This document shows positions 16,099 to 34,720 of a stretch of DNA of 56,210 nt, piece after piece. The notes under the pieces are model-generated. The model was given only the letters and a program-made list of their open reading frames with translations, was not told the origin of the DNA and made no database searches. Both the position numbers and the translations under genes were made by a program. The first letter of the stretch is position 1, and each line of letters opens with the position of its first letter. The DNA comes from Cellulomonas sp. (GTDB lineage Bacteria > Actinomycetota > Actinomycetes > Actinomycetales > Cellulomonadaceae), in NCBI GenBank assembly GCA_022013895.1, contig JAKLPK010000073.1, forward strand, positions 1 through 56,210. The letters are read 5' to 3'.

Positions 16099-17229
16099 GT
16101 GAGCCAACCTCAGACCCCGCAGGACCGGTCGCGCGGGTGGGTGGTCGGGCACGTCGCCGGAGCCCCGGTGGTGCTGGCGCCCAGCTCCCTGCTCGCCGCC
16201 GTCGTGCTCACCCTCATGTTCGCACCGTCGCTCTCGGGCCTCGGCTCGCGCTCCTACGTCGTCGCGGCCGCGTTCGTGGTCCTGCTGTTCGGCTCGGTGC
16301 TCATCCACGAGCTCGCTCACGGGTTGGTGGCCCGACGTCGTGGCCAGCAGCCGCGGGAGTTCGTCCTCACGCTGTGGGGCGGGCACACCTCGTTCGACGG
16401 ACCCGACCCCGGGCCGGCCACGACGGCCCTGGTCGCCGTCGTAGGGCCGGCCGCCAACCTCGCGCTCGCCGCGGTGTTCCTGGGCCTGGCGGCGATCACG
16501 CCGGCCGGGTCGTTGGGTGAGTGGCTGATGTACTCGGGCGCCGTGTCGAACGGTTTCGTCGGTGCTTTCAACCTGGTCCCGGGTCTGCCGCTGGACGGCG
16601 GGCGCATCCTGCAGGCTGCCGTCTGGGCGGGCACCAAGGATCGGCACACCGGATCGGTCGTGGCCGGGTGGAGCGGGCGGGTGGTGGCCGCCGGCACGCT
16701 GCTGCTCGCACTCGGGCTGCCGTTGGCGTCGGGGGGTACGCCCAGCCTGTTCACGGTGGCCTGGGCGGCGCTGATCGCCGCGTTCCTGTGGAGCGGCGCC
16801 AGCCAGTCGATCGCCGCCGGGAACCGGGGCCGGCAGGTCGACTCGCTCACGGTCGCGGGCATCGGGCGACGAGCCGTCGGCGTGCCGTACGACGCGACGG
16901 TTCTCGAGGCGGGTCTTCGGGCGCAGGCGGCCGGTGCGGTGGACGTCGTCCTGCTGTCACCCGAAGGTCGACCGGCCGCGTTCGTCGACACCGCGGCCGC
17001 GGCCTCGGTCCCTGCCGACGCGGTCGCGACCACACCGGTGCAGGCGGTCAGCGTGCCGCTGCCGTTCGGCGCGGTGATCGACGCACACGCTCGTGGCCAC
17101 GCCCTGCTCCAGGCGGTTGCGGCGGCGGCGGGCGGCGCCGGTGCGGGGTCGGCCGTCGTCGCTCTCGAGGACGGGATGGTCGTCGCGCTGGTGCGCGTCG
17201 GGGACGTGCTCGCGGCCGTGCGCGGCTGA
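16099..17229 (+). CDS. Site-2 protease family (M50) intramembrane metalloprotease
   Basis: A 376-residue M50 protease. Zinc ligands are in LIHELAHGLVARR (about residues 72-84) and in the conserved NLVPGLPLDGGRIL (about 158-171), where Asp is the third ligand. Hydrophobic helices flank both. Residues about 245-376 form a soluble C-terminal region with the beta-alpha pattern of CBS domains, as in the Rv2625c-like group that lacks PDZ domains. Such proteases cleave anti-sigma factors or other membrane substrates; the target here is unknown. GTG 16099 is chosen from the -10 placement; GTG 16093 is possible. Confidence 0.88.
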   Translation: MSQPQTPQDRSRGWVVGHVAGAPVVLAPSSLLAAVVLTLMFAPSLSGLGSRSYVVAAAFVVLLFGSVLIHELAHGLVARRRGQQPREFVLTLWGGHTSFDGPDPGPATTALVAVVGPAANLALAAVFLGLAAITPAGSLGEWLMYSGAVSNGFVGAFNLVPGLPLDGGRILQAAVWAGTKDRHTGSVVAGWSGRVVAAGTLLLALGLPLASGGTPSLFTVAWAALIAAFLWSGASQSIAAGNRGRQVDSLTVAGIGRRAVGVPYDATVLEAGLRAQAAGAVDVVLLSPEGRPAAFVDTAAAASVPADAVATTPVQAVSVPLPFGAVIDAHARGHALLQAVAAAAGGAGAGSAVVALEDGMVVALVRVGDVLAAVRG

Positions 17230-17244
17230 CCCGCGCCCGCTCCC

Positions 17245-17250
17245 TAGACT
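17245..17250 (+). promoter_or_regulatory. Leaderless -10 element of trmI
   Basis: TAGACT ends 8 nt before GTG 17259. No Shine-Dalgarno sequence lies between, and the preceding gene stops only 29 bp before the start. Confidence 0.45.
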
Positions 17251-17258
17251 TGTCCGTC

Positions 17259-18236
17259 GTGACTGCAACCGTCCCGACCGGCGCCGATCTGCGCCGGGGC
17301 CCCCTGCGTGCCGGCGAGCGTGTCCAGCTCACCGATGTCAAGGGCCGACCGAACACCATCACCCTGGCGGCCGGCGCCGCGTTCCACACCCATCGGGGGC
17401 TCATCGCGCACGACGAGCTGATCGGTTCGGACGAGGGCGTGGTCGTGACGACGACCGCCGGGGTGGAGTACCTGGCCATGCGGCCGCTGCTGGCCGACCA
17501 CGTGATGTCGATGCCACGCGGTGCCGCCGTGGTGTACCCGAAGGACGCCGGCCAGATCGTCACGATGGCCGACATCTACCCCGGCGCACGGGTGGTCGAG
17601 GCCGGGGTCGGCTCCGGTGCGCTCACCCTGTCCCTGCTGCGCGCGGTCGGGGACGGCGGCTCGCTGCTGTCGGTGGAGCGCCGCGAGGACTTCGCCGCGA
17701 TCGCCCGGGCCAATGTCGAGCAGTTCTTCGGCGGTGAGCACCCGGCCTGGACGTTGCAGCTCGGCGATGTGGCCGATGCGTTGCTGGGACTCGGGGCGGC
17801 CGGCGTGGACCGGGTGGTGCTCGACATGCTCGCCCCCTGGGAGAACCTGGCCGCCGTCGCCGCAGCGCTCGTGCCGGGGGGCGTGCTGCTGGCGTACGTC
17901 GCGACGACCACCCAGCTGTCCCGGCTCGCGGAGGACGTGCGGGCCGACGGCCGCTACACCGAGCCGGTGGCCTGGGAGTCGATGGTGCGCGGCTGGCACC
18001 TCGAGGGTCTGGCGGTGCGACCGGAGCACCGGATGATCGGGCACACCGGGTTCCTGCTCACCACCCGCAGGCTCGCGGACGGCGTCGTCGCGCCGCTGCG
18101 CCGGCGCAGGCCCTCCAAGGGCGCCTACCCGGTCGACGGCGCATGGTCGCCCGAGGACCTCGGTGAGGCTCCGATCTCGGAGAAGAAGGTCCGTCGCGTG
18201 CGGCGTGACCTGGAGCCGACGCCCGAGGGCGACTGA
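17259..18236 (+). CDS. trmI: tRNA (adenine-58-N1)-methyltransferase TrmI
   Basis: A 325-residue SAM-dependent methyltransferase that makes m1A58 in the T loop of tRNAs. An N-terminal beta domain (about 1-70) is followed by a Rossmann domain with the SAM motif VVEAGVGSGALTLSLLRAVG at about residue 112 and VDRVVLDMLAPWENL (acidic motif IV). This is typical for TrmI (Rv2118c-like). A basic C-terminal tail follows. In most actinobacteria trmI lies directly upstream of mpa/arc, as here. Many in-frame upstream codons exist but they run antisense-like through the protease gene, so GTG 17259 is used. Confidence 0.93.
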   Translation: MTATVPTGADLRRGPLRAGERVQLTDVKGRPNTITLAAGAAFHTHRGLIAHDELIGSDEGVVVTTTAGVEYLAMRPLLADHVMSMPRGAAVVYPKDAGQIVTMADIYPGARVVEAGVGSGALTLSLLRAVGDGGSLLSVERREDFAAIARANVEQFFGGEHPAWTLQLGDVADALLGLGAAGVDRVVLDMLAPWENLAAVAAALVPGGVLLAYVATTTQLSRLAEDVRADGRYTEPVAWESMVRGWHLEGLAVRPEHRMIGHTGFLLTTRRLADGVVAPLRRRRPSKGAYPVDGAWSPEDLGEAPISEKKVRRVRRDLEPTPEGD

Positions 18237-18384: not shown

Positions 18385-20013
18385 ATGACCGACCCGACGG
18401 CGCAGGATGCGCACCGTGAGCTTGCGGTGCTCGCTGCCAAGAACGAGCGGCTCAGCCAAGCCCTGATCGCCGCCCGCGAGCAGATCGTCGAGCTCAAGCA
18501 CCAGGTGGACGACCTGGCCAAGCCGCCGGGGACCTACGCGACGTTCCTGGCCGCACGCCCGGACGGTTCGGTCGACATCGTCTCGCAGGGCCGCAAGATG
18601 CACGTCGGTGCCAGCCCGTCGCTCGATCTGACCGCGCTGCGTCCCGGCCAGGAGGTCATGCTCAACGAGGCTCTCACCGTCGTCGAGGCGGGTGGTTACG
18701 AGATGGTCGGTGAGCTGGTCACCATCAAGGAGCTGCTGGGCGCCGGGAGGGCGCTGGTCGTCGGGCGTGGTGACGAGGAGCGGGTCGTGCGGTTCGCCGG
18801 TCAGGTGGTCGACGCCGGGGTCCGGATCGGCGATGCCTTGACGATCGACTCGCGCAGCGGGTTCGTGTTCGAGGTGATCCCGCGGGCCGAGGTCGAGGAG
18901 CTGGTCCTCGAGGAGGTCCCGGACATCGAGTACCAGGACATCGGTGGGCTCGGTCCGCAGATCGAGGCGATCCGGGACGCCGTCGAGCTGCCGTTCCTGC
19001 ACCCCGAGCTGTTCGCCGAGCACGGTCTCAAACCGCCGAAGGGCGTGCTGCTCTACGGGCCGCCGGGATGCGGCAAGACGCTCATCGCCAAGGCCGTGGC
19101 GCACTCCTTGGCTGCGACGGCTGCCCTCAGCAGGGGCGAGGACGTCACCGACGGGCGGGCGTTCTTCCTCAACGTCAAGGGTCCCGAGCTGCTCAACAAG
19201 TACGTGGGGGAGACCGAACGCCACATCCGGCTGATCTTCGCGCGAGCCCGTGAGAAGGCGTCCCAGGGTCACCCGGTGGTGGTGTTCTTCGATGAGATGG
19301 AGTCGCTGTTCCGCACCCGCGGGACCGGTGTGTCCAGCGACGTCGAGACGACGATCGTGCCCCAGCTGCTCGCCGAGATCGACGGTGTGGAGCGGTTGGA
19401 GAACGTCATCGTGATCGGGGCCTCGAACCGTGAGGACATGATCGACCCGGCGATCCTGCGGCCCGGGCGCCTCGACGTGAAGATCAAGATCGAGCGCCCG
19501 GACGCCGAGGGTGCGCGGGAGATCTTCGCGAAGTACCTCACGGCTGATCTGCCGCTGCACGACGACGACCTGGCCGAGCACGAGGGCGACAAGGCGCGCA
19601 CCGTCGAGGCCATGATCAACCGCACGGTCGAGCGGATGTATGTCGAGTCCGACGAGAACCGGTTCCTCGAGGTCACCTACGCCAGCGGCGACAAGGAGAT
19701 CCTCTACTTCAAGGACTTCAACTCCGGCGCGATGGTGCAGAACATCGTCGACCGCGCCAAGAAGCAGGCCATCAAGGACTTCCTGGCCACCGGCCAGCGG
19801 GGCATCCGGGTGGAGCACCTGCTGTCGGCCTGCGTCGAGGAGTTCAAGGAGAACGAGGACCTGCCCAACACCACGAACCCGGACGACTGGGCCCGCATCT
19901 CCGGCAAGAAGGGCGAGCGCATCGTGTTCATCCGCACGATCATCGCCGGCAAGAAGGGCACGGAGGGCTCGAAGGTCATCGAGAACGTGACGAACACCGG
20001 CCAGTACCTCTGA
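18385..20013 (+). CDS. mpa: Proteasome-associated ATPase Mpa/ARC
   Basis: A 542-residue hexameric AAA+ unfoldase that recognises Pup-tagged proteins and feeds them to the 20S proteasome. The N-terminal coiled coil is at about residues 5-50 (Pup binding) and the OB domains at about 50-185. Walker A GPPGCGKT is at 225-232, and Walker B ends in Asp303-Glu304 ([10 protein letters not shown]). The arginine-finger and sensor region is in [20 protein letters not shown]. It ends in Gln-Tyr-Leu, the terminal motif with penultimate Tyr that docks on the proteasome. ATG follows GGAGGG. The next gene, dop, starts 70 bp later. Confidence 0.97.
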
Positions 20014-20071
20014 CGGTCCGCCCTCGACGGTCCAGCAGTCGGGTGCTCCGGTTCGGCCCGGGACGCGCCAC

Positions 20072-20077
20072 TAGGGT
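20072..20077 (+). promoter_or_regulatory. Leaderless -10 element of dop
   Basis: TAGGGT ends 6 nt before the dop GTG 20084. There is no Shine-Dalgarno sequence. It implies that dop can be transcribed apart from mpa. Confidence 0.5.
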
Positions 20078-20083
20078 GGCCCG

Positions 20084-21685
20084 GTGAGCGTCCGCCGGGT
20101 GATGGGGATCGAGACCGAGTACGGGATCCTGGAGCCGGGGCGCCCCACGGCCAACCCGATGCTGCTGTCGAGCCATGTGGTGGCCGTCCAGGCCGCGGCC
20201 CGTGACGGCGCCCGACGACGGGCCCGCTGGGACTACGACGCCGAGGACCCGCTGCACGACGCCCGAGGTTTCAGGCTGCAGCGTGCCGCCGCGATCCCCT
20301 CGATGCTCACCGATGTGCCGGGTCGCGCTGCACCGTCCCCGGACGACGACGGGCCCCAGCCCCTGCCGCGGACCGGCGACGAGTACGAGGACCCGGGTGC
20401 TGCGAACGTCATCCTCACCAACGGCGCGCGGCTGTACGTCGACCACGCCCATCCCGAGTACTCCTCGCCCGAGGTGACGAACCCGCGCGACCTCGTCGTG
20501 TTCGACCGGGCCGGTGAGCTGGTCATGCTCGACAGCGTCCGCGCGTTGGCCGCGAGCCCGGCGCTGCCGGACGTGACGCTCTACAAGAACAACGTGGACG
20601 GCAAGGGCGCCACCTACGGGACCCACGAGAACTACCTCGTGGACCGCGCGGTGCCGTTCGACGACCTGGTGCGCTGGGTGACGCCGTTCCTGGTGACCCG
20701 GCAGGTCTTCACCGGCGCCGGCCGCGTCGGGTTGGGTCAGCACGGTGAGCAGGCCGGTTACCAGCTCTCGCAGCGCGCCGACTACATCGAGGCCGAGGTC
20801 GGTCTGGAGACGACGTTGCGCCGGCCCATCGTGAACACCCGCGACGAACCGCACGCCGACCCGGTGCGCTGGCGTCGGCTGCACGTGATCGTCGGCGACG
20901 CGACCATGCTGGAGGTGGCGACCTACCTGCGGGCCGGCACCGCGTCGCTCGTGCTCTGGCTCATCGAACGGGCCACCGCCACCGGGACCGGGTTGCCCGC
21001 GATCGAGGCGCTCGCACTGCGCGACCCGGTGGACGCCGTGCACCGCGTGTCCCGCGACCTGACCCTGGCCGTCCCTCTCGAGCTGTCCCGGGGCGGCACG
21101 GTGACCGCCCTGGAGGTCCAGCGCGCGTACCTCGAGGCCGTCCATCAGGCGCTGGCCGCCGACGGGGTGACGCCCGATGAGCAGACGGTCGATGTGCTGA
21201 AGCGCTGGTCGGACGTCCTGGACCGGTTGGCGACCGATCCGATGAGCTGTTCCCGGGACGTGGAGTGGGTGGCCAAGCTGCGGTTGCTGGAGGGGATGCG
21301 CCGTCGCGAGCACCTGGCCTGGGACCACGCCAAGCTCGCCGCGGTGGATCTGCAGTGGTCCGATCTGCGACCTGAGCGCGGGCTCTACCACCGGCTGGCG
21401 GCGGCCGGTGCGGTGGAGCTGCTGGTCGACCCGCGGGAGGTCGAACGTGCCGCGGCGCACCCCCCGGTCGACACCCGGGCCTACTTCCGTGGTGAGGCGA
21501 TGGCCCGCTATGCCGGTCAGGTGTCGGCGGCCAGCTGGGACTCGGTGGTGTTCGACGTCCCGGGTGCCACCAGCCTGCAGCGGGTCCCGATGCGCGACCC
21601 GTTGCGCGGCACGCAGGCACATGTGGGAGCTCTGCTGGACACGTGCCCGGACGCCGCCAGTCTGCTGAGCGCCCTCGGCGCCTGA
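20084..21685 (+). CDS. dop: Pup deamidase/depupylase Dop
   Basis: A 533-residue glutamine-synthetase-like enzyme that converts the C-terminal Gln of Pup to Glu and also removes Pup from substrates. The ATP/Mg loop MGIETEYGI is at residues 7-15. Catalytic Asp120 is in LYVDHAHPEYSSPE. A long insertion at about residues 41-103 is the Dop loop that separates Dop from PafA. NNVDGKGATYGTHENYL is conserved with PafA. Dop is required here because the local Pup ends in Gln. It is cut off from pup by the large opposite-strand gene. Confidence 0.96.
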   Translation: MSVRRVMGIETEYGILEPGRPTANPMLLSSHVVAVQAAARDGARRRARWDYDAEDPLHDARGFRLQRAAAIPSMLTDVPGRAAPSPDDDGPQPLPRTGDEYEDPGAANVILTNGARLYVDHAHPEYSSPEVTNPRDLVVFDRAGELVMLDSVRALAASPALPDVTLYKNNVDGKGATYGTHENYLVDRAVPFDDLVRWVTPFLVTRQVFTGAGRVGLGQHGEQAGYQLSQRADYIEAEVGLETTLRRPIVNTRDEPHADPVRWRRLHVIVGDATMLEVATYLRAGTASLVLWLIERATATGTGLPAIEALALRDPVDAVHRVSRDLTLAVPLELSRGGTVTALEVQRAYLEAVHQALAADGVTPDEQTVDVLKRWSDVLDRLATDPMSCSRDVEWVAKLRLLEGMRRREHLAWDHAKLAAVDLQWSDLRPERGLYHRLAAAGAVELLVDPREVERAAAHPPVDTRAYFRGEAMARYAGQVSAASWDSVVFDVPGATSLQRVPMRDPLRGTQAHVGALLDTCPDAASLLSALGA

Positions 21686-21705
21686 ACCGGGCCCCGGAGG
21701 CAGGT

Positions 21706-21750
21706 CGACGGCAGGCCGTCCCGGCGGTACGCCGGGACGGCCTGCCGTCG
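21706..21750. terminator. Very strong bidirectional hairpin terminator
   Basis: Perfect 21-bp arms at 21706-21726 and 21730-21750 with a 3-nt loop, placed between the dop stop and the stop of the convergent 6.7-kb gene. It is the longest perfect hairpin I noticed in the core part of the window and should stop transcription from both sides. Confidence 0.8.
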
Positions 21751-21760
21751 TGGTCGCCTG

Positions 21761-24700
21761 TCAGAACGCGGTGAGCACCAGGGTCGCCGTGTAGGTACCC
21801 GGGGTGACCGAGCTCGGGATCTTCTGCAGGCTGAGCGTGCCGTCCAGGCGGACGGAGCCCGTCCCCAGGCCGCTCGGGTAGCTCGCCACCTGCTTGGAGG
21901 TGACGAGCGGGTCGGTCAGCGGTGCGCGATCCGTCACCGTGACGTCGGTGGCCTGCAGGGCGTTGCCGATCACCTGCTGAGCGGCCAGATCGACCAGACC
22001 GACGTGCTCCGCGGAGAACGAGTCCGACCCGGATCCGAAGTCGCTGCTGACCGCCGCGACCGCGAAGCCCGAGTTGCCGGCGCGGGTGTCGGTCACGACG
22101 ATCCGGTCCAGCACGCCCTGAGCGCTGAAGGTCGAGGTGACCTGATCCAGCTCGGCCGGCCCCAGGCGCAACGGGTCGTCCGGCGTGTAGGGCGAGGTGA
22201 TCGTGAGCGCACCGCTGGGGATGTCGACATTCACGGTCTGCTCGTCTCCCGTGGTGCCGGGCGTCCCGTAGGTGACCTCCACCTCGGTCGAGGTCGCCAG
22301 CACTGTGCCGTCCTCGGCGGTCAGCTCTGCGTGCAGGCGGTGCGTACCGACACCGAGGGCATCGGTGGTGAGGGTCACCGTCGTGGCGCCGTCGGCGATC
22401 ACCACGGTGCCCAGCGGTGTCTGGTCGGCGTAGAACGTCACCGTGCCGGTGGTCGGCCTGGTGAGCTGGGCGGTGAGGACGACACCGGCTGCCGGGTCGG
22501 TGACCTCCTCGGGTGCGCTCAGGGTCAGACCCAGTGCCTCGGCGGGCGCGGCGGTGACCGCTGCGCTCGTCGCACTGACCGGGCCGTACCCGGTAGCCGT
22601 CACCGTGACCTGGACCGCGATGCTGTGCCCCTCGTCCTGTGCGGTGAGCTGGTAGTCCGGCAGGGTGGCGCCGGAGATGGGCTCGTCGTCACGCAGCCAC
22701 TGGTAGGCCGCCTCGGGCGAGGTCAGACCGTCGAGCCAGGTGCCGAGGTCCGAGCTCAGCGTCTGACCGGTCTGGGGTGTGCCCTCCACGGTGGCCTGGG
22801 CCACCGGCTGGGCCGCGAGCTCGCAGCCGGCCGGCAGGAGATCGGCCGAGTCGGCCGAGTACTGCTGCGACCCGTCGGCGGAGTGGCAGGTCACGAACGA
22901 GTCGACGACCTCACCGCTGGGGTAGGACACCGCCTCGTAGGTGAGCAGACCGTCGTCGAACCGGATCTTCTGGTAGGTCCGCACGGCCTCGTAGGCGGTG
23001 ACCCGCACGGCCCCGTTGAGGGTCCAGTCGTTCTCGTCGGCGGTGTCCAGGTCGTAGCTCTTGGGCCCGAGCACCGAGGTGGCGAACACCGGACCGTCCT
23101 GCACCCCGCTGAGCCCTGCCACCTCGTGGGAGGCCAGGTATCCGCGTCCGTAGGTGTGGTCGTGGCCCTGGAGCACCAGGTCGACGTTGTTGTCCTCGAT
23201 CACCTGCAGGAATGCCTCGCGCAGGTGCGCCTCGGCGCGACCGACGGCCGTCGAGAACAGCGGCTGGTGGATGGAGACCACCGACCACTGGCCCGGGTTC
23301 GCCTTGAGCACATCGTCGAGGTACTCCGCCTGGAAGTCCCACCAGTACTCGACGAAGTTGAAGTCTGCGGCGCAGCTCACCGAGGCGAGCTCGTCGGCCG
23401 ACGGCATGAGGTCGGCCATCTGGGTGGTGCCGGCCAGGGTGACGAACCGCACGCCCTGGTAGTCGGTCGTCGAGACGATGTCGCGCATCGACTCGACGAA
23501 CTTCTTCTGGTACACCCACTCGCAGGTGCCGGCAGCGGCCGTGATCTGCGGGCCGTTGTCCGCGTTGGTGTAGTGCTCGCGGAAAGCCGTGGCGAGCCCG
23601 CCGTCGGCGTACTCGTGGTTGCCCGCGACCATGATCTGCGGGACCTCGGCGAGCTGCTCGGGCACTGCGCCGAACCAGGAGCCCCATTCGTCGTCGTTGT
23701 CGGCGTGGTTGATCTGGTCACCGGCGTTGAGCGTGATGGCTGCATCGGCGACGTCGGCGTAGGCCTGCTGGACGGCGGGCGTCCACTTGCTGATCAGGTC
23801 GTTCTGGGCGTCGCCGAAGTTGAGCATGGTGAACGACTGCGCGTCGGAGGACGGGACGGTCACCGTGTACCACGGGCTCCAGCCGGCGTCCGACCCCACG
23901 CGGTAGTCGTAGGTGCCGCCGGGCGTCAGCCCGGTCAGCGTGGCGACGTGGCTGCGAGCTGTGAAGGTGCCCGACGAGGACTCGTAGCTCACGGGGTCAC
24001 GGGTGACCGCGGTCAGTGTGGCGACGTCCTGGCCGTCGGAGCGGATCTGCGCGACGGACTGGGTGACGCTGGGATCGGTCCGGTAGGTGGACACCAGGTC
24101 GCCCTCGGCGGAGATCGACAGGATCACCCGGTCCGGTGTGGCTGACGGCGGGTACGCCACCGTGGGCTCAGTGGTGCCGGGGTCGGTCGGGTCGGTCGGG
24201 TCGGTGGGCGTACCGCTGCTGGGATCCGGCAGCTCGGCGTCGTTGCGCGCCGTCGCGGCGCCGGCCAGGTCGACCGTCACCACCTTCTGCAGGTCGCTGG
24301 TGGCCAGCTCGATGTGCTCGACCAGGCTCTGGGAGCTGCCGGTGACGTTGATCTCGAGGTCGACCGTCACCGAGATCGTCACCCGCAGTCCGATCACCGT
24401 GGACCCGTCATCGGTCAGCGTGACCAGCTGGCTGGCCGTCGCATCGATCCGGGTGTGGGCGACGCCCGAGAGGTCCTCGATGTTGAGGTAGCCGTCGAGG
24501 TTCTCCACCCCGAGCGAGGCGAGCAGGGCCGGCAGATCATCGACGGTGCTCTCGTGCGACACGGTGACCGGTGCGGGCAGCGTGCCGTCGACCAGGTCGA
24601 CGGGGGTCCCCAGCAGGGTCAGGGAGCCGATCGAGCCGCTCGCCGTCGGAGCCAGGGTGTCGTCCACCGGCGACGTGGACAGACCCGACACCTGCGTGGC

Positions 24701-27700
24701 GTGGACCAGCTCGTCCAGGCCGGTCAGCTGACCGATCATCCCGTCGTCGTCCAGGGCGAGGTGGTTCATCACGAACTCGGTCACCGTCGCCTCGGTGGTG
24801 ATCCCGGTGGAGTCGCGGGCCGTGGTCACCGAGACGTCCCCGTAGGTGACCCCGGCTCCCAGGCTCTCGATGCCGGTACCGGCCGGGACGCCCGCGGGGT
24901 AGGTCACGGTCAGCGGCTCGGTGCCCTCCGGGGTCCCGGTCTCCGGCAGTGAGAAGGCTGCCCCGTGGATGAGCTCCACGCCGGAGCCGATCTCACCGTT
25001 GATCAGGCCGGAGATGGCACCGCCGGTGGCCTCGCCGGTGCCGATCAGCGGGTCGACGTCGATCGACAGCGGTGAACCGAGCGCGGACACACCGTCCGCG
25101 GCCGGGCCCTGCGGTGCGGTGACCGTGAGCCGGGCGGCGTCGGTGACCACCTGCGGACCGACCCCGTTGTCGAGCACGGCCCGGTACCGCGTGCCGGTGA
25201 GGGTGCTGGTCGCGGTCAGTGAGAGGTCGGTGGTGAGGGCCGAGGGGTTGGCCGTGGCGTCGAGATCGGTCCAGACGGCGTCGTCGTCGACGGCGGACGT
25301 CGTGGACTGCCAGCGCACCGTCGGGACCGGGTTGCCGACGGTCCGGACGCTGAACGTCGCCTGGCTGTCGCGCTCGACCGTGGCGTCGGCCGGCTGCTGG
25401 GTGATCACCGGACCGTAGTGGACGGTCAGGGTCGCGGACTCGGTCGTGGTGGTGCCGATGTCGTTGGTGAGCACCGCGCGCACCTGGGCGCCGTCCTGCG
25501 TGGCGGTGACCGTGGGCGACCAGGTGGCCTCGGTGGTGCCGTCGACGTCCTGCCAGCCGGTGCCGTTGTTGAGCTGCCACTGCACCTGCGGCGCAGGCCA
25601 TCCCGCGACGCCGACGTGCAGGTCGACCACGGAGCCCGCGGTCGCGGTCACGGCAGCGGGCTGGGCGGTGACCACCGGGGCGTACAGGACGGTGAGCTGG
25701 GACTCCTCGGAGACGGCCGAGCCGACGTCGTTGGTGAACACGGCCCGGAAGACGGCACCGCCGTCCTCCCGGGTGGCGGTGAAGGCCAGGTCGGCGTCGT
25801 TCGCACCGGAGATGTCGGTCCACAGACCGTCGCCCGAGGAACGCTGCCACTGGATCGCCGGTTCCGGGAACCCGGACGCCGTGGCGTCGAGGGTGACCAG
25901 GTCGCCGGCGGCCACGGTGACGTCCGCCTCCGGCTGGGTGGTGACCGCCGGTGCCGCAGTGACGGTCAGCGTACGTGCGTTGGAGGTGCCGGCCGAGGTG
26001 CGTACCGTCACGGTGTGCTCGCCGGCCGTCAGGGTCTGCGGTGCGACGACGGTCAGCGTGGTGGCGGACGTGACGGTCGTGGGAGCCTCGACCCCGTCGA
26101 CCAGTGCGACGGCATCGGCGGAGAAGGCCCGTCCTGCGACGGTCACCGTGTCCCCGGGCTGGGCTTGCGCAGGCGAGACCGACAGCAGTGCCGGGGTGAC
26201 GGCGTTGGGCGCGGTCACCTGGACGGCGCCGACCTGGGCGGTGAAGAAGGTGACCTCTTGGCCGTCCCGGCTGCCACCGGTGCCGTGCCGGGCCCGGGTC
26301 TTGCCCAGGCCGCTGTTCTCGCCGTAGTACTTGTACTGCACGGTGGCGCTGAGGGTGAAGGCGCTGGCCTGGGCCGACGAGCCGGAGGCGCTGGCCTGGC
26401 CGGGAGCGACCGTGATGCGCAGCGTCGCGTAGCTGTCGCTCTTGATGTACTTGTAGGCGCTGTGGGGGTCGGAGAAGAAGACTCCGTTCATGGCCGTGAG
26501 CGACGAGAGCTGGCTGGAGCTGTAGGTCAGGGTGAAGGTCTGCGCCTGCGCGACCTTGCCGTCCTGGAGGGCGACGGACTGTCCGAGCACCTTGAGGTCA
26601 CTGATGGACACCTCGCTGGTCGCGGTTCCCTGGACCGGGGCCGTGGCCCGCGTGGTGATGCTGCCCGCGGTGACCACCTGCGGGACGGTCGAGAAGAACT
26701 GGTTCCACGGGGCGGGCAGCGCGAGGCCGTAGTTCCCGGCGACGGCCTCGCCCGTCAGCGCGAACGGGGTACGCGTGACCGTCCCGGTGAAGCCACCTGC
26801 GGCGGCGGTGGTCAGACCGTTGCCGGTCGCGTCGCTCGACGGCGCCGCGACGGACAGGTCGGTCCACGACGAGGCCGTGCCGGCCGGGTTGATCAGATCG
26901 GGGTTGCTCCAGGTCATCACGGAGGAGTTGTCCACGGTCAGGGGGACCTGAGCGGTGCTGCCGACGAGCCCGGTCACAGCGGCCGAGCCGCTGGCGGGGA
27001 CCTCGGGAAGCGTGAGCGCGTGGACGGTCACGGTCAGCGGACCCGCATACCGGTCCCCGTCCCGGACCGCCACCTGCACCGTCCCGGGGGTCAGCCCTTC
27101 GGGAGCAGGGACCTGCAGGGTCAACCCGCTGTCGGCAACCTGGACCCGGGTGCCGGAGACGGTCCGGGTCGTGCCCGAGGAGTCGGTGAACTCGACCCGG
27201 GTACCGCCGGACCGGAAGCCGGACCCGGTCAGTGCGACGGTGCCCCCGTCCACCAGGTCCTGCGGGGTCGCGGCGGTGAGTGTGAGGTCGACGTAGTCCT
27301 CGCCCCGAACCTCGATCTTGCCCGCGGAGACGCTGCCGCCGGCAGTGACCACCTCGACGCTGTAGGAACCGGTCGACAGCCCGACCGGAATCGTGACGGT
27401 GACCGAGCTGCCGTCGGTGGCCACGTTCGTGACCGTCGTCGTCGACCCGCCGACGAGCACCTGGGTGCCGTCCACCACGAATCCTGCCCCGCTGATCGTG
27501 AGCGACTGGCCCACCTCGACGTCCTGACCGGACACGGGGCTGGCGCTGGGCCGGATCGCGGTCGGTGCCGCGGCGGAGAACCGTGCCACATCGGCGACCA
27601 GCACGTCGTTGTCGGCGGTGAGGTCGCCCGAGCCCATGCTCAGGATCATCTTGACCTGGACCCGGGTCTGGATGTGGCCGACGATGTGGAGCCCGCCCGA

Positions 27701-28501
27701 GGCCGGGGTGGACACGGTCACGGTCAGGGTGCCGTCCACGCTCCCGCTGGAGATCAGACCGTCGTACTCGTCGATGTCCGCCTCATCCACACCGAGGCTG
27801 CGCAGCAGCGCGGGGATGTCGGTCGTGTGCACCGTGGTGCTGCGTGAGACCGGTTCGGCGAGACGTCCGTCGGTGAGCGCCACCTGCTGCCCGAGCACCC
27901 GCAGCCCGGCCACCCGCGTGTCGACGGACGTCGTGCCGAGGACGCTCGCGGCGGCCTGGGTGCGCACCTCGTCCGCGTGGACGACCTCGGTCACCCCGAA
28001 GAGGGTCGCGACCTTGTCGTTGAGACCCGTCATGTCCACCTGGACGCCCTGGACCAGCGACGATCCGACGAGTCCGCTCGGGGTCCGGGTGACCTGGTCC
28101 TGGCCGCCGTCGATCGCGATCCCGCTGCCAGGCTCGCTCTTGACCGTGCCGTCCTCGGAGTCGGTGATGACCCCGGGCACGTCGCCGGCGGCCAGTGTCG
28201 CGCCGGCCTGCGCGTTCCCGGTCGCGTCGCCGTCCGGTGCGACGGTTCCCGAGAGGGTGTAGACGCCGTTGTCACCCAGGAGCACCGGGGGATCGATGGC
28301 GCTGGCGAGCTGGCCGGAGACCGAACCGTCCGCGGGCAGCGCCGACACGGTCGCTGCCACGGGCAGTGAGGTGAGAGCGCCGGAGCGGGTGGGGTCTGCG
28401 GCCAGGGCCATCGGCACGACCCCGCCGAGCACGATTGCGCCGGCCAGAAGGGCGCCGAGGGCACCTCGTCGACGAGTGCCGGTGAGCTTTCGATTCGCCA
28501 T
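21761..28501 (-). CDS. Giant secreted multidomain protein: TIG/Ig domains plus calcineurin-like phosphoesterase
   Basis: A 2,246-residue exported protein. Residues 1-34 are a signal peptide (basic start, GALLAGAIVLGGVVPMALA). Three related beta modules occur at about 35-310, 480-760 and 1130-1420. IPT/TIG domains are at about 314-400, 404-490 and 770-850, and Ig-like repeats with a PxxxWQ core at about 850, 937 and 1030. Residues about 1440-1830 are a purple-acid-phosphatase-like unit: an Fn3 domain, then FGDAQ (Asp1564), AGDQIN (Asp1595), GNHE (1627-1630) and GHDH (1779-1782). The Tyr typical of PAP (GDxxY) is replaced. Two more Ig-type domains and a terminal beta domain follow. There is no LPxTG or membrane anchor. 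AAGGA precedes ATG. It probably acts on extracellular phosphoesters or on surfaces; the substrate is unknown. Confidence 0.85.
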   Translation of the reverse strand: MANRKLTGTRRRGALGALLAGAIVLGGVVPMALAADPTRSGALTSLPVAATVSALPADGSVSGQLASAIDPPVLLGDNGVYTLSGTVAPDGDATGNAQAGATLAAGDVPGVITDSEDGTVKSEPGSGIAIDGGQDQVTRTPSGLVGSSLVQGVQVDMTGLNDKVATLFGVTEVVHADEVRTQAAASVLGTTSVDTRVAGLRVLGQQVALTDGRLAEPVSRSTTVHTTDIPALLRSLGVDEADIDEYDGLISSGSVDGTLTVTVSTPASGGLHIVGHIQTRVQVKMILSMGSGDLTADNDVLVADVARFSAAAPTAIRPSASPVSGQDVEVGQSLTISGAGFVVDGTQVLVGGSTTTVTNVATDGSSVTVTIPVGLSTGSYSVEVVTAGGSVSAGKIEVRGEDYVDLTLTAATPQDLVDGGTVALTGSGFRSGGTRVEFTDSSGTTRTVSGTRVQVADSGLTLQVPAPEGLTPGTVQVAVRDGDRYAGPLTVTVHALTLPEVPASGSAAVTGLVGSTAQVPLTVDNSSVMTWSNPDLINPAGTASSWTDLSVAAPSSDATGNGLTTAAAGGFTGTVTRTPFALTGEAVAGNYGLALPAPWNQFFSTVPQVVTAGSITTRATAPVQGTATSEVSISDLKVLGQSVALQDGKVAQAQTFTLTYSSSQLSSLTAMNGVFFSDPHSAYKYIKSDSYATLRITVAPGQASASGSSAQASAFTLSATVQYKYYGENSGLGKTRARHGTGGSRDGQEVTFFTAQVGAVQVTAPNAVTPALLSVSPAQAQPGDTVTVAGRAFSADAVALVDGVEAPTTVTSATTLTVVAPQTLTAGEHTVTVRTSAGTSNARTLTVTAAPAVTTQPEADVTVAAGDLVTLDATASGFPEPAIQWQRSSGDGLWTDISGANDADLAFTATREDGGAVFRAVFTNDVGSAVSEESQLTVLYAPVVTAQPAAVTATAGSVVDLHVGVAGWPAPQVQWQLNNGTGWQDVDGTTEATWSPTVTATQDGAQVRAVLTNDIGTTTTESATLTVHYGPVITQQPADATVERDSQATFSVRTVGNPVPTVRWQSTTSAVDDDAVWTDLDATANPSALTTDLSLTATSTLTGTRYRAVLDNGVGPQVVTDAARLTVTAPQGPAADGVSALGSPLSIDVDPLIGTGEATGGAISGLINGEIGSGVELIHGAAFSLPETGTPEGTEPLTVTYPAGVPAGTGIESLGAGVTYGDVSVTTARDSTGITTEATVTEFVMNHLALDDDGMIGQLTGLDELVHATQVSGLSTSPVDDTLAPTASGSIGSLTLLGTPVDLVDGTLPAPVTVSHESTVDDLPALLASLGVENLDGYLNIEDLSGVAHTRIDATASQLVTLTDDGSTVIGLRVTISVTVDLEINVTGSSQSLVEHIELATSDLQKVVTVDLAGAATARNDAELPDPSSGTPTDPTDPTDPGTTEPTVAYPPSATPDRVILSISAEGDLVSTYRTDPSVTQSVAQIRSDGQDVATLTAVTRDPVSYESSSGTFTARSHVATLTGLTPGGTYDYRVGSDAGWSPWYTVTVPSSDAQSFTMLNFGDAQNDLISKWTPAVQQAYADVADAAITLNAGDQINHADNDDEWGSWFGAVPEQLAEVPQIMVAGNHEYADGGLATAFREHYTNADNGPQITAAAGTCEWVYQKKFVESMRDIVSTTDYQGVRFVTLAGTTQMADLMPSADELASVSCAADFNFVEYWWDFQAEYLDDVLKANPGQWSVVSIHQPLFSTAVGRAEAHLREAFLQVIEDNNVDLVLQGHDHTYGRGYLASHEVAGLSGVQDGPVFATSVLGPKSYDLDTADENDWTLNGAVRVTAYEAVRTYQKIRFDDGLLTYEAVSYPSGEVVDSFVTCHSADGSQQYSADSADLLPAGCELAAQPVAQATVEGTPQTGQTLSSDLGTWLDGLTSPEAAYQWLRDDEPISGATLPDYQLTAQDEGHSIAVQVTVTATGYGPVSATSAAVTAAPAEALGLTLSAPEEVTDPAAGVVLTAQLTRPTTGTVTFYADQTPLGTVVIADGATTVTLTTDALGVGTHRLHAELTAEDGTVLATSTEVEVTYGTPGTTGDEQTVNVDIPSGALTITSPYTPDDPLRLGPAELDQVTSTFSAQGVLDRIVVTDTRAGNSGFAVAAVSSDFGSGSDSFSAEHVGLVDLAAQQVIGNALQATDVTVTDRAPLTDPLVTSKQVASYPSGLGTGSVRLDGTLSLQKIPSSVTPGTYTATLVLTAF

Positions 28502-28711
28502 GATCTTGCGTCCTTGTGCGGTCGACGGGCGGGGACATCCCTTGTGTAGCGACGAAATGTGGCATTTGTCTGATATGTGGGTGTCCTGAGGACGATGGCC
28601 AGCGGTCGTCCGGCAACGGAGCCGCGGCAGGCGGGCGCATCGTGGCGCGGTCGGGGCATCGGCCTCCGCACTGGCCTAGGGTGGTCAGACCACACCGTTC
28701 GGAGGTGCGCC
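28502..28711. promoter_or_regulatory. Divergent promoter region, giant gene and pup
   Basis: A 210-bp intergenic region. The pup side has TAGGGT at 28677-28682, followed by the 6-bp inverted repeat GTGGTC-A-GACCAC at 28681-28693 over the expected start of transcription, then GGAGG before ATG 28712. The other side holds an unusually A/T-rich stretch at about 28545-28585, the likely promoter of the giant gene. Confidence 0.5.
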
Positions 28712-28903
28712 ATGGCAGGTCAAGAGCACGTGAGCAGTCGTCGCGATGACGAGGAGCCGGTCGACGACGTGCCGGCGGTCGCTGTCCCGGCTGCTGCCGC
28801 CCAGGACGAGGCGGTGGACGCCTTGCTGGACGAGATCGACGACGTCCTGGAGCAGAACGTCGAGCAGTTCGTCCGAGGGTTCGTGCAGAAGGGCGGTCAG
28901 TGA
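28712..28903 (+). CDS. pup: Prokaryotic ubiquitin-like protein Pup
   Basis: A 63-residue disordered, acidic tag protein starting [16 protein letters not shown] and ending [10 protein letters not shown]. The C-terminal Gly-Gly-Gln is the form that needs deamidation by Dop before PafA can attach it to lysines. The helix-forming region [19 protein letters not shown] binds the Mpa coiled coil. The start is fixed by GGAGG and by homology (M-A-G/Q-E). The TGA overlaps the prcB start by 4 bp. Confidence 0.97.
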
Positions 28904-29727
28904 GCCTCGTGCCGCCGCCGTCGAGCGGCCGGCTGCCGGCCGCGTTCACCACACCCGGGTCGTCCTCGTTTGTGGAGTTCCTCGCGCAGGCCGCGCCCGC
29001 GCTGCTCCCGGGGAACCGTCCGACGGGTGCAGGTGACCTGGTCGTCCCGCATGCGACGACGATCGTCGCGGCGAGGTTCGACGGCGGGATCGTGATGACC
29101 GGGGACCGGCGCGCGACAGCGGGCTCGATGATCGCGTCACGTCACATCGAGAAGGTGTTCCCGGGCGACGACTACTCGGCGATCGGGATCGCGGGCTCGG
29201 CGGGTCTGGCGATCGAGCTGGTCCGGCTGTTCCAGCTCGAGCTCGAGCACTACGAGAAGATCGAGGGCAGCCTGCTGTCGCTGGACGGCAAGGCAAACCG
29301 GCTGGCGACGTTGCTCCGGGGCAACCTCGGACTGGCGATGCAGGGGTTGGCGGTGGTTCCGCTGTTCGGCGGCTTCGACCTGGCTCGGGCCGTCGGGCGC
29401 ATCTTCTCCTACGACGTGACGGGTGGACGTTACGAGGAGCAGGACCACCATGCGATCGGTTCGGGGTCGGTGTTCGCCCGTGGGTCGTTGAAGAAGCGCT
29501 GGCGGCCCGGGCTCGATGCCGCCGGGGCGGTCGAGGTGGCGGTCGAGGCACTCGTCGACGCGGCCGACGACGACTCGGCGACCGGCGGGCCCGATGCGGG
29601 TCGGCGGATCTACCCGATCGTTGCCACGGTGGATGCCGGGGGCTACCGGCGGGTGAGCGACGACCAGCTGTCGGCGGTGTCCGGGCGGATCGACGTCGAA
29701 CGACAGGTGGGGGACCCGCGCGTATGA
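28900..29727 (+). CDS. prcB: 20S proteasome beta subunit PrcB
   Basis: A 275-residue catalytic subunit. A propeptide of about 52 residues is removed before the active-site Thr53 ([16 protein letters not shown]). Downstream Asp (TGDRRAT) and Lys (HIEKVF) of the Ntn-hydrolase active site are present. The GTG start overlaps the pup stop (GTGA), so the two are translationally coupled. It forms the inner rings of the 20S core with PrcA. Confidence 0.97.
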
Positions 29728-30443
29728 GCATGCCGTTCTACGTCTCGCCCGAACAGCTCATGAAGGACCGGGCCGACTTCGCGCGCAAGGGCATCGCCCG
29801 CGGTCGCTCGGTGGTGGTGCTCCAGTACGACGACGGGATCGCGTTCGCCTCGGAGAACCCGTCGCGTGCGCTGCACAAGATCTCCGAGATCTACGACCGG
29901 ATCGCGTTCGCCGCGGTCGGCAAGTACAACGAGTTCGAGAACCTGCGGGTGGCCGGGGTGCGGTACGCGGATCTGCGCGGTTACTCCTACGACCGGGTCG
30001 ACGTGACGGCGCGGGGACTGGCGAACGCCTACGCACAGACGCTCGGCACGGTGTTCACCACCGAGTCCAAGCCGCTGGAGGTCGAGCTGGTGGTGGCCGA
30101 GGTCGGTGCGGACCCGGTCGCCGACCAGCTGTACCGGCTCACCTACGACGGTTCGGTCGCCGAGGAGCAGGGCTACGTCGTGATGGGTGGGCAGGCCGAA
30201 CGCCTCGGCGCGCTCGTCGCCGAGCAGTGGCAGGCCGGGCTGCCGCTCGCCCGGGTGCTGCAGATCGCGGTGCAGGCGTTGGGCTCGTCACCCGAGGACG
30301 GCGGGACGAACCGCGAGCTCGCACCCGCCCAGCTCGAGGTCGCGGTGCTCGATCGCACCCGCACCCGGCGGGCGTTCCGTCGGCTCACGGGCGAGGCGCT
30401 GGTCGAAGCGCTGGGGTCCGAGCCTGCGACCGCGGACGACTGA
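29724..30443 (+). CDS. prcA: 20S proteasome alpha subunit PrcA
   Basis: A 239-residue non-catalytic alpha subunit, starting [20 protein letters not shown], which forms the gated outer ring and the docking pockets for the Mpa C-termini. The [20 protein letters not shown] strands and the [21 protein letters not shown] block are family features. The N-terminal helix is short, as in other actinobacteria. ATGA overlap with prcB. pafA follows after 11 bp. Confidence 0.97.
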
Positions 30444-30454
30444 AGGAGGCGACG

Positions 30455-31816
30455 ATGGACCGACGCATCTTCGGCCTGGAGACCGAGTACGGCGTGACCT
30501 GCGCATCGTCGGACGGCCGCGGACTGTCGGCCGACGAGGTCGCGCGGTACCTGTTCCGCAAGGTGGTGGCCTGGGGCCGCTCGTCGAACGTCTTCCTGCG
30601 CAACGGGTCGCGGCTGTACCTCGATGTCGGTTCGCACCCGGAGTACGCGACCGCCGAGTGCGACGACTGGCGTCAGCTCGTGGCGCACGACCGGGCGGGG
30701 GAGCGGATCCTCGAAGGTCTGGTCGCCGATGCCCAGGAGCGGCTCGAGCACGAGGGTCTGCCCGGCACGATCCACCTGTTCAAGAACAACACCGACTCCG
30801 CAGGGAACTCCTACGGCTGCCACGAGAACTACCTGGTGGGCCGGGCCGGGGACTTCACCCGGTTGTCCGATGTGCTGGTGCCGTTCCTGATCACCCGGCA
30901 GCTTCTCACCGGCGCCGGCAAGGTCCTCGCCACCCCGCGTGGGGCCACCTACTGCCTGTCGCAGCGGGCCGACCACATCTGGGAGGCCGTGTCCTCGGCG
31001 ACCACCCGTTCGCGGCCCATCATCAACACCCGTGACGAACCGCACGCCGATGCCGAGCTGTTCCGCCGGCTGCACGTCATCGTCGGGGACTCCTCCATGT
31101 CGGAGGCGACCACGGTGCTCAAGGTCGGGATGACGGACCTCGTGCTGCGCGTCATCGAGGCCGGGCTGCCGACGCATGACTTCACGATGGAGAACCCGAT
31201 CAGGTCGATCCGGGAGATCAGCCACGACCCGACGGGACAGCACCCGGTGGTGCTCGCGAACGGCAAGACCGTCACGGCACTCGACATCCAGGAGGAGTAC
31301 CTGTCCCGGGTCACCGAGCTGGTGACCCGCGAGCTCGGCCCGACCCCGCAGGTCAAGGCCGTCCTGGAGCTGTGGGAGCGCGGGCTGCGGGCGATCCGCA
31401 CGGGCGACCTGTCCCTGGTGGATCGTGAGCTCGACTGGGTGATCAAGCTGAAGATGATCGAGCGGTACCAGGCCAAGCACGATCTGGAGCTGTCCGATGT
31501 GCGGGTCGCCCGCCTGGACCTGGCGTACCACGACATCTCGCGGACGCAGGGCCTGTACAACCTGCTGGCGGCCCGCGGTCTGGTCGAGCGGGTGACGACG
31601 GACCTCGACGTGTTCGAGGCGACCGCCCAGCCCCCGCAGACCACCCGCGCGAAGCTGCGCGGGGACTTCGTCCGCGCCGCGCAGGAGGCACGACGCGACT
31701 ACACGGTCGACTGGGTGCACCTCAAGCTCAACGACCAGGCGCAGCGCACGGTGCTGTGCAAGGACCCGTTCCGTTCGGTGGACGACAGGGTGGACCGGCT
31801 CATCGAGTCGATGTGA
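30455..31816 (+). CDS. pafA: Pup-protein ligase PafA
   Basis: A 453-residue glutamine-synthetase-like ligase that phosphorylates the Pup C-terminal Glu and joins it to substrate lysines. The N-terminal [16 protein letters not shown] has Mg-binding Glu9. Catalytic Asp57 is in [32 protein letters not shown] is conserved. It lacks the Dop loop, which separates it from its paralogue at 20084. The ATG is set by AAGGAGG 6 nt upstream and the homologous N-terminus. Confidence 0.96.
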
Positions 31817-33518: not shown

Positions 33519-33534
33519 GCCCCCGGATGCGCGG

Positions 33535-34167
33535 CTATGCCCCGGCGAGCGCGCCGAGGTCGTCAGCGGCGCCCTCCAGGGTGACGTGCGCGGCGTCCCG
33601 TCGGCCGAAGCAGAACAGGGCGAGGTCCGCCAGCGAACCGCGCACCGCGACGGTCCCGGAGCCGTTGCCCGGGCGGCGGACCCGCGCGCGTGGTCCGTCG
33701 GGGCGGACCAGGATCAGCCCGGTGGGCACGTGCCGGAGCAGTCGCGGAGCCGTCCGCACCAGCCCGGCCCAGATCGCATCGACCAGGCCCGGGTCCACGT
33801 CCGGGTCGGTGAGGCCTGCGGCACGGGTCACGTCGAGGGTGTGGACCGTCAGCTCCAGCAGGTCACCGGCATCGCCGGCCCAGCGCAGCGGGTGCCAGAC
33901 GGGTGGGGCGGCGGCGACCCGGGCGATGAGCGAGGCGTAGCCGGTCTCGTCGTCGGCCGAGCCGGCGAGCGCCTGCACCCGCGCCTCCGCCCGGTCCGCG
34001 AGCGGCGGCGCGAGGAGCGCCAGGTCGTACAGCGGCTCCGACTGACGAAGCACCAGGTGGGCCGCGAGGTGCCGGGTCCGCCAGCCGGCGCAGAGGGTGG
34101 GACCGTCCGGGCCGGCGTCGGCGAGGGTTCGCGCGAGCCGGGCGCGGAGGGAGGGGTGCCATGCCAC
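33535..34167 (-). CDS. TIGR03085 family DinB-like metal-binding protein
   Basis: A 210-residue protein of the TIGR03085 subgroup of mycothiol-dependent maleylpyruvate isomerase-like (DinB-fold) proteins. The family features TLCAGWRTRHLAAHLVLRQ (metal His in LAAHL) and ELTVHTLDVTRA are clear. It probably binds one divalent metal at the top of a four-helix bundle. Function unknown; a thiol-dependent role would fit the mycothiol background. It is divergent from hisI and convergent with hisF. Confidence 0.85.
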   Translation of the reverse strand: MAWHPSLRARLARTLADAGPDGPTLCAGWRTRHLAAHLVLRQSEPLYDLALLAPPLADRAEARVQALAGSADDETGYASLIARVAAAPPVWHPLRWAGDAGDLLELTVHTLDVTRAAGLTDPDVDPGLVDAIWAGLVRTAPRLLRHVPTGLILVRPDGPRARVRRPGNGSGTVAVRGSLADLALFCFGRRDAAHVTLEGAADDLGALAGA

Positions 34168-34267
34168 GGTCCGATCCTGTCATGCGGGTCCGTGAGCCCG
34201 CGGAGCGGCAGGTCTGCGGGCCGGCGTCGGTGGCTGCCGGGCCGGTGCCGCGGGAGGTCGGTGCGTC

Positions 34268-34720
34268 GTGAGTGTCGGCGGACAGCCCCCGGGCGTCGTG
34301 CGGCTGCGTGGCAGGATCGTCCACGTGCCCGTCGCCAGCCTTGACCCCGACATCGCCCGCCGCCTCAAGCGTGACGAGTCCGGCCTGGTCGCCGCCGTCG
34401 TCCAGCAGCACGACACCGGTGAGGTGCTCATGCTCGGCTGGATGGACGACGAGGCCCTGCACCGGACCCTGACCACCGGGCGGGTGACCTTCTGGAGCCG
34501 TTCGCGGCAGGAGTACTGGCGCAAGGGGGACACCTCGGGGCACGTGCAGCACGTCCGTTCGGTCGCCCTCGACTGCGACGGTGATGCACTGCTGGTCCGG
34601 GTCGACCAGGTCGGTGCCGCCTGCCACACCGGGAGCCGGACCTGCTTCGAGGCAGGTGGCCCGCTCCCGGCGGTCGTCGGGCGGGCGCTGGACGACACCT
34701 CGACGGGAGCGCAGCCGTGA
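34268..34720 (+). CDS. hisI: Phosphoribosyl-AMP cyclohydrolase HisI
   Basis: A 150-residue enzyme opening the purine ring of PR-AMP in histidine synthesis. Conserved blocks are [31 protein letters not shown] and the zinc site [21 protein letters not shown] (Asp/Cys/Cys with a later Cys in RTCF). GTG 34268 follows GGGAGG at 10 nt. A shorter start, GTG 34325 ([17 protein letters not shown]), agrees better with usual family N-termini and has CAGGAT 7 nt upstream, so either is possible. The stop overlaps trpE by 4 bp. Confidence 0.94.

Follow-up and report, generated by a model that had tools for sequence, protein, structure and literature searches.

The window analysed here is a 56,210-nt stretch of DNA from a Cellulomonas MAG, which comprises 304 contigs and is 89.8% complete and 5.6% contaminated. 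The assignment to Cellulomonas follows from the window's Dop protein because its best named matches fall in this genus: MAG KR13_N1.mb.16 (L084) at 94%, Cellulomonas citrea (L085) at 88% and MAG Emb289P3bin125 (L086) at 81% identity. Profile matches place arc, dop, pup, prcB, prcA and pafA together on one strand in the order arc/mpa, dop, pup, prcB, prcA, pafA, with a giant gene of the opposite strand between dop and pup (Table 1). From the stop codon of dop to the pup start there are 7,026 bp, and the two genes do not directly succeed each other. The pafA family match covers aa 79–529 of its frame, and the true start of this gene is probably downstream of 30227. In the part of the review available to us, the Pup-proteasome genes are handled as one locus and no statement on dop-pup co-transcription was found (PMC8223512); the available part of a second article likewise yielded nothing on dop-pup transcription (PMC9556782). 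Our literature search on the Pup-proteasome genes of Cellulomonas led to a mass-spectrometry review which, going by its title, is unrelated. Further downstream, ~770 bp at 33520–34290 are common to the window and C. citrea and absent from the sister MAG L084, which has 9 bp between the flanking alignments at this place.

Table 1 Features of the dop-pup region in the window.
Feature	Position	Strand	Basis and remarks
arc/mpa proteasome ATPase gene	18385..20013	+	TIGR03689, 817.6 bits; upstream of dop
CTAGGGT, −10-like, directly 5' of dop	20071..20077	+	Motif scan; putative promoter element
dop (depupylase/deamidase)	20084..21685	+	TIGR03688, 657.3 bits (cut-off 492.3)
Insert relative to nearest relatives	21686..28666		Replaces a spacer stretch of 39 bp in L084 and 48 bp in L085
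Perfect 21-bp hairpin	21706..21750		Between convergent ends of dop and giant gene
Giant gene, 2,246 codons	21761..28501	−	ORF, ATG start; PAP-like metallophosphoesterase, probably exported, with Ig/TIG domains
WxL-like C-terminal domain, aa 2085–2246	21764..22249	−	Weak PF13731 matches in family
PAP N-terminal and calcineurin-like phosphoesterase domains, aa 1440–1890	22832..24184	−	Pfam, metal motifs, fold match
Divergent intergenic region, giant gene/pup	28502..28711		210 bp; sequence
CTAGGGT, −10-like, of pup	28676..28682	+	Starts 36 nt before pup ATG; putative promoter element
pup, 63 aa, C-terminal GGQ	28712..28903	+	PF05639, 74.1 bits; TIGR03687, 59 bits
prcB	28900..29727	+	TIGR03690, 352.3 bits; overlaps pup stop codon
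prcA	29724..30443	+	TIGR03691, 373 bits
Frame holding pafA	30227..31816	+	TIGR03686, 734 bits

The preliminary description of this DNA had placed a gene for a 2,246-residue phosphoesterase on the opposite strand between dop and pup, and the gene is confirmed and the phosphoesterase call supported. The codon-position GC of the ORF is 0.66/0.54/0.93 (GC3 0.925), and its codon use correlates with that of seven other window frames (RSCU correlation 0.962; one of the seven, 16521–18236, itself looks spurious). Therefore, we regard it on sequence grounds as a real, native-looking gene and not a spurious high-GC frame; the same correlation led us to reject a foreign composition. Four kinds of Pfam domain exceed their cut-offs, Ig_3/I-set, TIG, Pur_ac_phosph_N (PF16656, 47.8 bits) and Metallophos (PF00149, 43.6 bits), and three regions are mutual repeats (aa 36–330, 500–770 and 1135–1430; Smith-Waterman z of 9.4, 13.0 and 6.6 against shuffles). 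The N-terminus, with basic and hydrophobic residues and ALA|AD, reads by eye as an export signal.

The metal-ligand motifs of this enzyme class are GD, GD, GNH, H and GHxH, and the tyrosine ligand of purple acid phosphatases (PAPs) sits in GDxxY. The phosphoesterase unit of the giant protein shares 37–41% identity with eight same-order homologues, and the positions GD, GD, GNHE, H and GHDH are invariant across the 9 aligned sequences. At the PAP tyrosine site the giant protein has GDQIN, and none of the 9 aligned rows has a tyrosine there; with Asn at this position, the enzyme is unlikely to contain a purple Fe(III)-tyrosinate centre. The structural model of the unit, whose confidence is intermediate (mean pLDDT 77), matches the plant purple acid phosphatase 3zk4 (Foldseek E 8.8e-21, TM 0.66 on query), and a search of solved structures by sequence with the phosphoesterase fragment returned no matches.

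In a model with pLDDT 93, the C-terminal 162 aa fold into a beta-rich domain. This domain has seven further matches in its own genome (E 2.3e-40 to 0.006), on contigs C6, C72, C116, C128, C214, C225 and C283 of G000; the frame on C128 also has a distant phosphoesterase match. Eight of the 11 family members match the WxL profile PF13731 weakly (best E 3.4e-5), and the window domain does so at E 0.049 and 14.1 bits, below the 25-bit cut-off. Its two WxL motif sites read GFAVA and LVLTA, with no tryptophan in either, and the first motif is kept in four of the 11 members (L210, L211, L206 and L207). In the available part of the literature source, the WxL domain is described from low-GC Gram-positives, with an Asp at W1−8 and an Arg at W1−6 (PMC9772566). 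The corresponding D54 and R56 are invariant in all 11 family members and lie 8 and 6 residues before F62 in the window domain, a spacing that differs in family rows with insertions between. Fold searches with the domain gave middling beta-sandwich matches to pilins, adhesins and GH123 N-domains (Foldseek best E 1.6e-3, VIA Z up to 8.3), with no WxL structure named among the matches listed; we therefore claim no family for the domain from structure. NCBIfam gave nothing useful for it, and our search found no literature on a WxL domain in Cellulomonas. Taken together, these features make the giant protein most likely a wall-associated PAP-like enzyme that is exported, contains Ig/TIG spacers and three repeats, and carries a WxL-like domain at its C-terminus.

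Where dop and the giant gene converge, an inverted repeat (21706–21726/21730–21750) separates them, with a 21-bp stem of 100% match and a 3-nt loop. Its RNA is predicted to fold at −61 kcal/mol on one strand and −59 kcal/mol on the other, with z near −7.3. When we scanned 63 dop-downstream regions for stems, each over up to 120 nt or the spacer and with loops of 3–12, this hairpin was the longest perfect stem, the runner-up being 9 bp. Some actinobacterial terminators are known to lack a T-run. No T-run follows the hairpin here, as a classical intrinsic terminator would have, and a consensus terminator scan did not include 21706–21750 among its calls; for both reasons, we treat "terminator" as a putative function. 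The perfect 21-bp terminator proposed earlier for the dop side thus stands as a hairpin, which probably acts as a two-way terminator.

Comparison with the nearest relatives shows how the locus looks without the giant gene. Their dop-pup spacers are 83 bp (L084), 88 bp (C. citrea) and 65 bp (L086), and all three present an empty site with synteny on both sides, at the Dop identities of 94%, 88% and 81% given above. The flanks of L084 and C. citrea align with the window up to 21685, the dop stop codon, and homology resumes at 28667 (L084) or 28671 (C. citrea), so that ~6,981 bp in the window stand for 39–48 bp of the relatives' spacer. In the Dop tree, the window joins L084 (SH-aLRT 97) and then C. 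citrea (98). From the size of this replacement and the synteny on both sides, we conclude that the giant gene arrived recently. A fragment spanning the phosphoesterase unit matches in six of the 81 genomes of the genus at E <= 1e-20, the source genome included; in the other five, the match has 38–40% identity and is located away from dop. Among the 81, only in the window does the unit lie between dop and pup, and no match of the giant protein above 50 bits was found in the DNA available for 80 named dop loci. We thus looked for, and did not see, the same gene in the gap throughout the family, the finding that in the preliminary description would have marked the layout as old and ordinary. That the gene was ancestral in the gap and lost from the relatives would accord with its native-like composition (RSCU correlation 0.962), yet the three nearest relatives are all empty and the gap of no other genome among the 81 holds the phosphoesterase unit, which makes this the least probable account that we considered.

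Another way to obtain a gene in the gap of one genome alone is an assembly artefact, in which the MAG contig joins foreign DNA into the spacer, and a MAG in 304 contigs with 5.6% contamination leaves room for it. Against this, both junctions lie between intact genes, the reading frame is unbroken over 6.7 kb, codon use is like that of the other window frames and other tenants occupy the same gap in isolates, and we consider an artefact very unlikely. Genome searches with fragments aa 1450–1900 and 1150–2246 named no donor. An order-wide search of 396 genomes, in which two candidates per genome were scored, matched the protein fragment in the phosphoesterase unit or the C-terminal module, and no match over the whole fragment appeared except the window itself. 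Among plasmids, nine records match the phosphoesterase unit at 23–38% identity and none matches the N-terminal 1,393-aa stretch; in the phages collection, a single record matched the unit weakly (23% identity), and IMG/VR gave no match to six peptide patterns drawn from the giant protein. A mobile-element origin was considered and rejected: there is no tRNA within 19000–30000, the insert is one long gene with no transposase, unlike an insertion sequence or transposon, and no target-site duplication was found, the longest exact repeat common to the edge regions being 9 bp (21703 and 28520) and off the junctions.

We then asked how often dop and pup are separated. By Pup and Dop profiles, 50 of 81 genomes in the genus have the two genes adjacent, 27 have them split and four are undecided owing to contig ends or absent Dop matches; the gap between profile edges is 83–221 bp in the 50 and 0.66–7.9 kb in the 27. 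A gene with the SCO7613_CTERM domain occupies 23 of the 27 splits and adjoins dop on the opposite strand in every one of them (a representative tenant, that of L039, reaches 122.7 bits, the cut-off being 45). In two further splits (G004 and G082) the insert includes a PPK2 gene oriented like dop, one (G080) has a gap of 0.66 kb and one is the window. Among the undecided genomes, an SCO7613 gene adjoins dop where the contig ends in G028 and G060, and a match below threshold (26 bits) lies upstream of pup in G094. Outside the genus, 22 order-level relatives were examined, of which two matched neither profile; the genes are adjacent in 16 of the 20 that have both (not in G039, G042, G054 and G056). 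The 80 named loci from all genera comprise 66 adjacent, 13 split and one undecided, and 12 of the 13 split loci are from Cellulomonas, the other being an Isoptericola locus with 0.77 kb. The premise that dop and pup are normally adjacent in actinobacteria is therefore borne out in 16 of 20 order-level relatives outside the genus and in 66 of 79 decidable named loci of all genera. Within the genus, the comparison cuts both ways: the giant gene occupies the gap in the window only, while the split itself is common (27 of 77 decidable genomes). In a 70-row Dop tree, built by a quick method from the loci available and with split loci over-represented relative to the genus and with a chosen outgroup that is not one side of a branch, the adjacent/split layout needs at least 11 changes, and well-supported branches force six for the "adjacent" label; L099, labelled "other" there, has an SCO7613-type frame, which leaves the adjacent/split count unaffected. 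The dop-pup gap of Cellulomonas is thus a repeatedly used insertion place.

The gap contents of individual loci are diverse. SCO7613-type tenants (L033–L044, L165, L167–L176 and L099), a gene of which type also splits dop and pup in C. gelida, are ORFs of 689–1,777 aa with zinc-ribbon-like N-terminal CxxC motifs by eye, and tblastn of the giant protein found no match in SCO7613-tenant loci. The related genomes of L032 and L164 carry PPK2 polyphosphate kinase genes and, by eye, a lipoprotein-like ORF in the gap, which in L164 also holds an AAA_14/DUF4143 ATPase. The 689-aa SCO7613-type ORF of L165 (the tenant of G058) and the gap of just 0.66 kb in L166 (G080) may represent shortened or decayed tenants. 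SCO7613_CTERM exceeds its cut-off in 41 of the 81 genomes of the genus, in several of them away from dop-pup; the genome from which the window comes yields no match. This absence, together with the prevalence of SCO7613-type genes in the splits (23 of 27) and the orientation that they share with the giant gene, would fit a replacement in which an ancestral SCO7613-type gene in the gap was swapped for the giant gene. We regard such a swap as unlikely, in that the window's six-row Dop clade holds three adjacent loci, two with PPK2 and the window, with no SCO7613 tenant, and the spacers of the nearest relatives are short.

Upstream of pup, the motif CTAGGGT lies within 75 nt in 57 of 63 loci (27 of the 28 that are split and 30 of the 35 that are adjacent), and the looser CTANNNT in 28 of 28 and 34 of 35, respectively. 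The third-nearest relative, L086, has GTAGGGT in place of the exact motif, which is also missing from five other loci. In the window, CTAGGGT occurs three times, always on the + strand (20071, 28676 and 36824), against 5.3 expected for both strands from base composition; hence, the argument rests on position and conservation and not on number. A sigma-70 consensus scan of 20000–29700 gave no sites. With the copy before dop ending 6 nt from the GTG, the dop transcript may be leaderless. We infer that a separate unit begins with pup and continues through prcB, prcA and pafA; such a unit would account for the tolerance of the spacer to tenants. The insert ends at 28666, 9 bp short of the pup CTAGGGT, so that the core of the probable pup promoter was kept and the upstream DNA, including any −35 box, is new. 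As the DNA just upstream of the motif was replaced, an altered −35 side of the pup promoter is possible.

The giant gene and pup do diverge from a common intergenic region of 210 bp, as the preliminary description had it, and its proposal that pup could come under the influence of an envelope gene would amount to a regulatory coupling of the two through a shared operator or supercoiling. The new DNA next to the pup −10-like element would allow such a link, and 23 other split genomes have a large opposite-strand gene adjoining dop in the gap before pup. The proposal is nevertheless unsupported, in that the pup-proximal motif is identical in adjacent and split loci and the motif and consensus scans found no shared operator. 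In addition, tenants vary by lineage and 50 of the 77 decidable genomes have none, and therefore no conserved circuit is indicated; we judge coupling to be unlikely. Since the nearest relatives lack the gene and about one-third of the genus has other DNA in the gap, the arrangement resembles a preferred site of insertion more than a new control circuit. A related idea, that the gap is a selected docking site to which large opposite-strand envelope genes come time and again because they insulate arc-dop from pup-prcBA-pafA while sharing control with pup, appears rather improbable to us; were it true, the depupylase and the tagging/degradation arm would be expressed separately.

The reading that we favour, with a probability of about 0.75, is a recent insertion of the giant PAP-like gene into a recurrently used, tolerant dop-pup spacer. 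The gene would have entered, in opposite orientation, the short spacer of one Cellulomonas lineage, where the arc-dop and pup-prcB-prcA-pafA halves would each have their own start signal, and the spacer would be a tolerant, recurrently used insertion point because of these separate signals. The insert follows the dop stop codon and stops short of the pup −10-like element, and a strong hairpin would separate it from dop, so that transcription of both halves of the locus should continue. The likely role of the protein is to cleave phosphate esters outside the cell; its WxL-like C-terminus would anchor it to the wall, with the Ig/TIG domains and repeats as spacers. The more interesting result here is the recurrent tenancy of the gap. 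It indicates that dop-pup adjacency is not rigid, having been broken or restored many times within one genus, with at least three unrelated kinds of tenant, and suggests that co-transcription of dop and pup is not required. Cellulomonas species thus offer a natural series for the effect of separate depupylase and Pup expression on pupylation.

Compared with known Pup-proteasome loci, the window has the same six genes in the same order on one strand and differs in that dop and pup are 7.0 kb apart with an opposite-strand gene between them. The usual tenant of the Cellulomonas gap, the SCO7613 C-terminal domain membrane protein (NF047321), has the same place and orientation as the giant gene; unlike the giant protein, it is hydrophobic and, by eye, probably a multi-pass membrane protein. 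The giant protein shares both domains, the fold and the metal motifs with the plant purple acid phosphatases (3zk4 and 1kbp), at 14–16% identity among the matches listed, whereas it has Asn for the Tyr ligand and its unit is embedded in a 2,246-aa multidomain protein. Its last domain resembles the WxL domain (PF13731) in C-terminal position, length (~160 aa), beta-rich character and the Asp and Arg placed 8 and 6 residues before W1, and differs from it in the Phe for the first Trp, the lack of a second Trp and the sub-cut-off score. The giant protein would add to the multidomain phosphatase-like surface proteins of actinobacteria, its tail being WxL-like.
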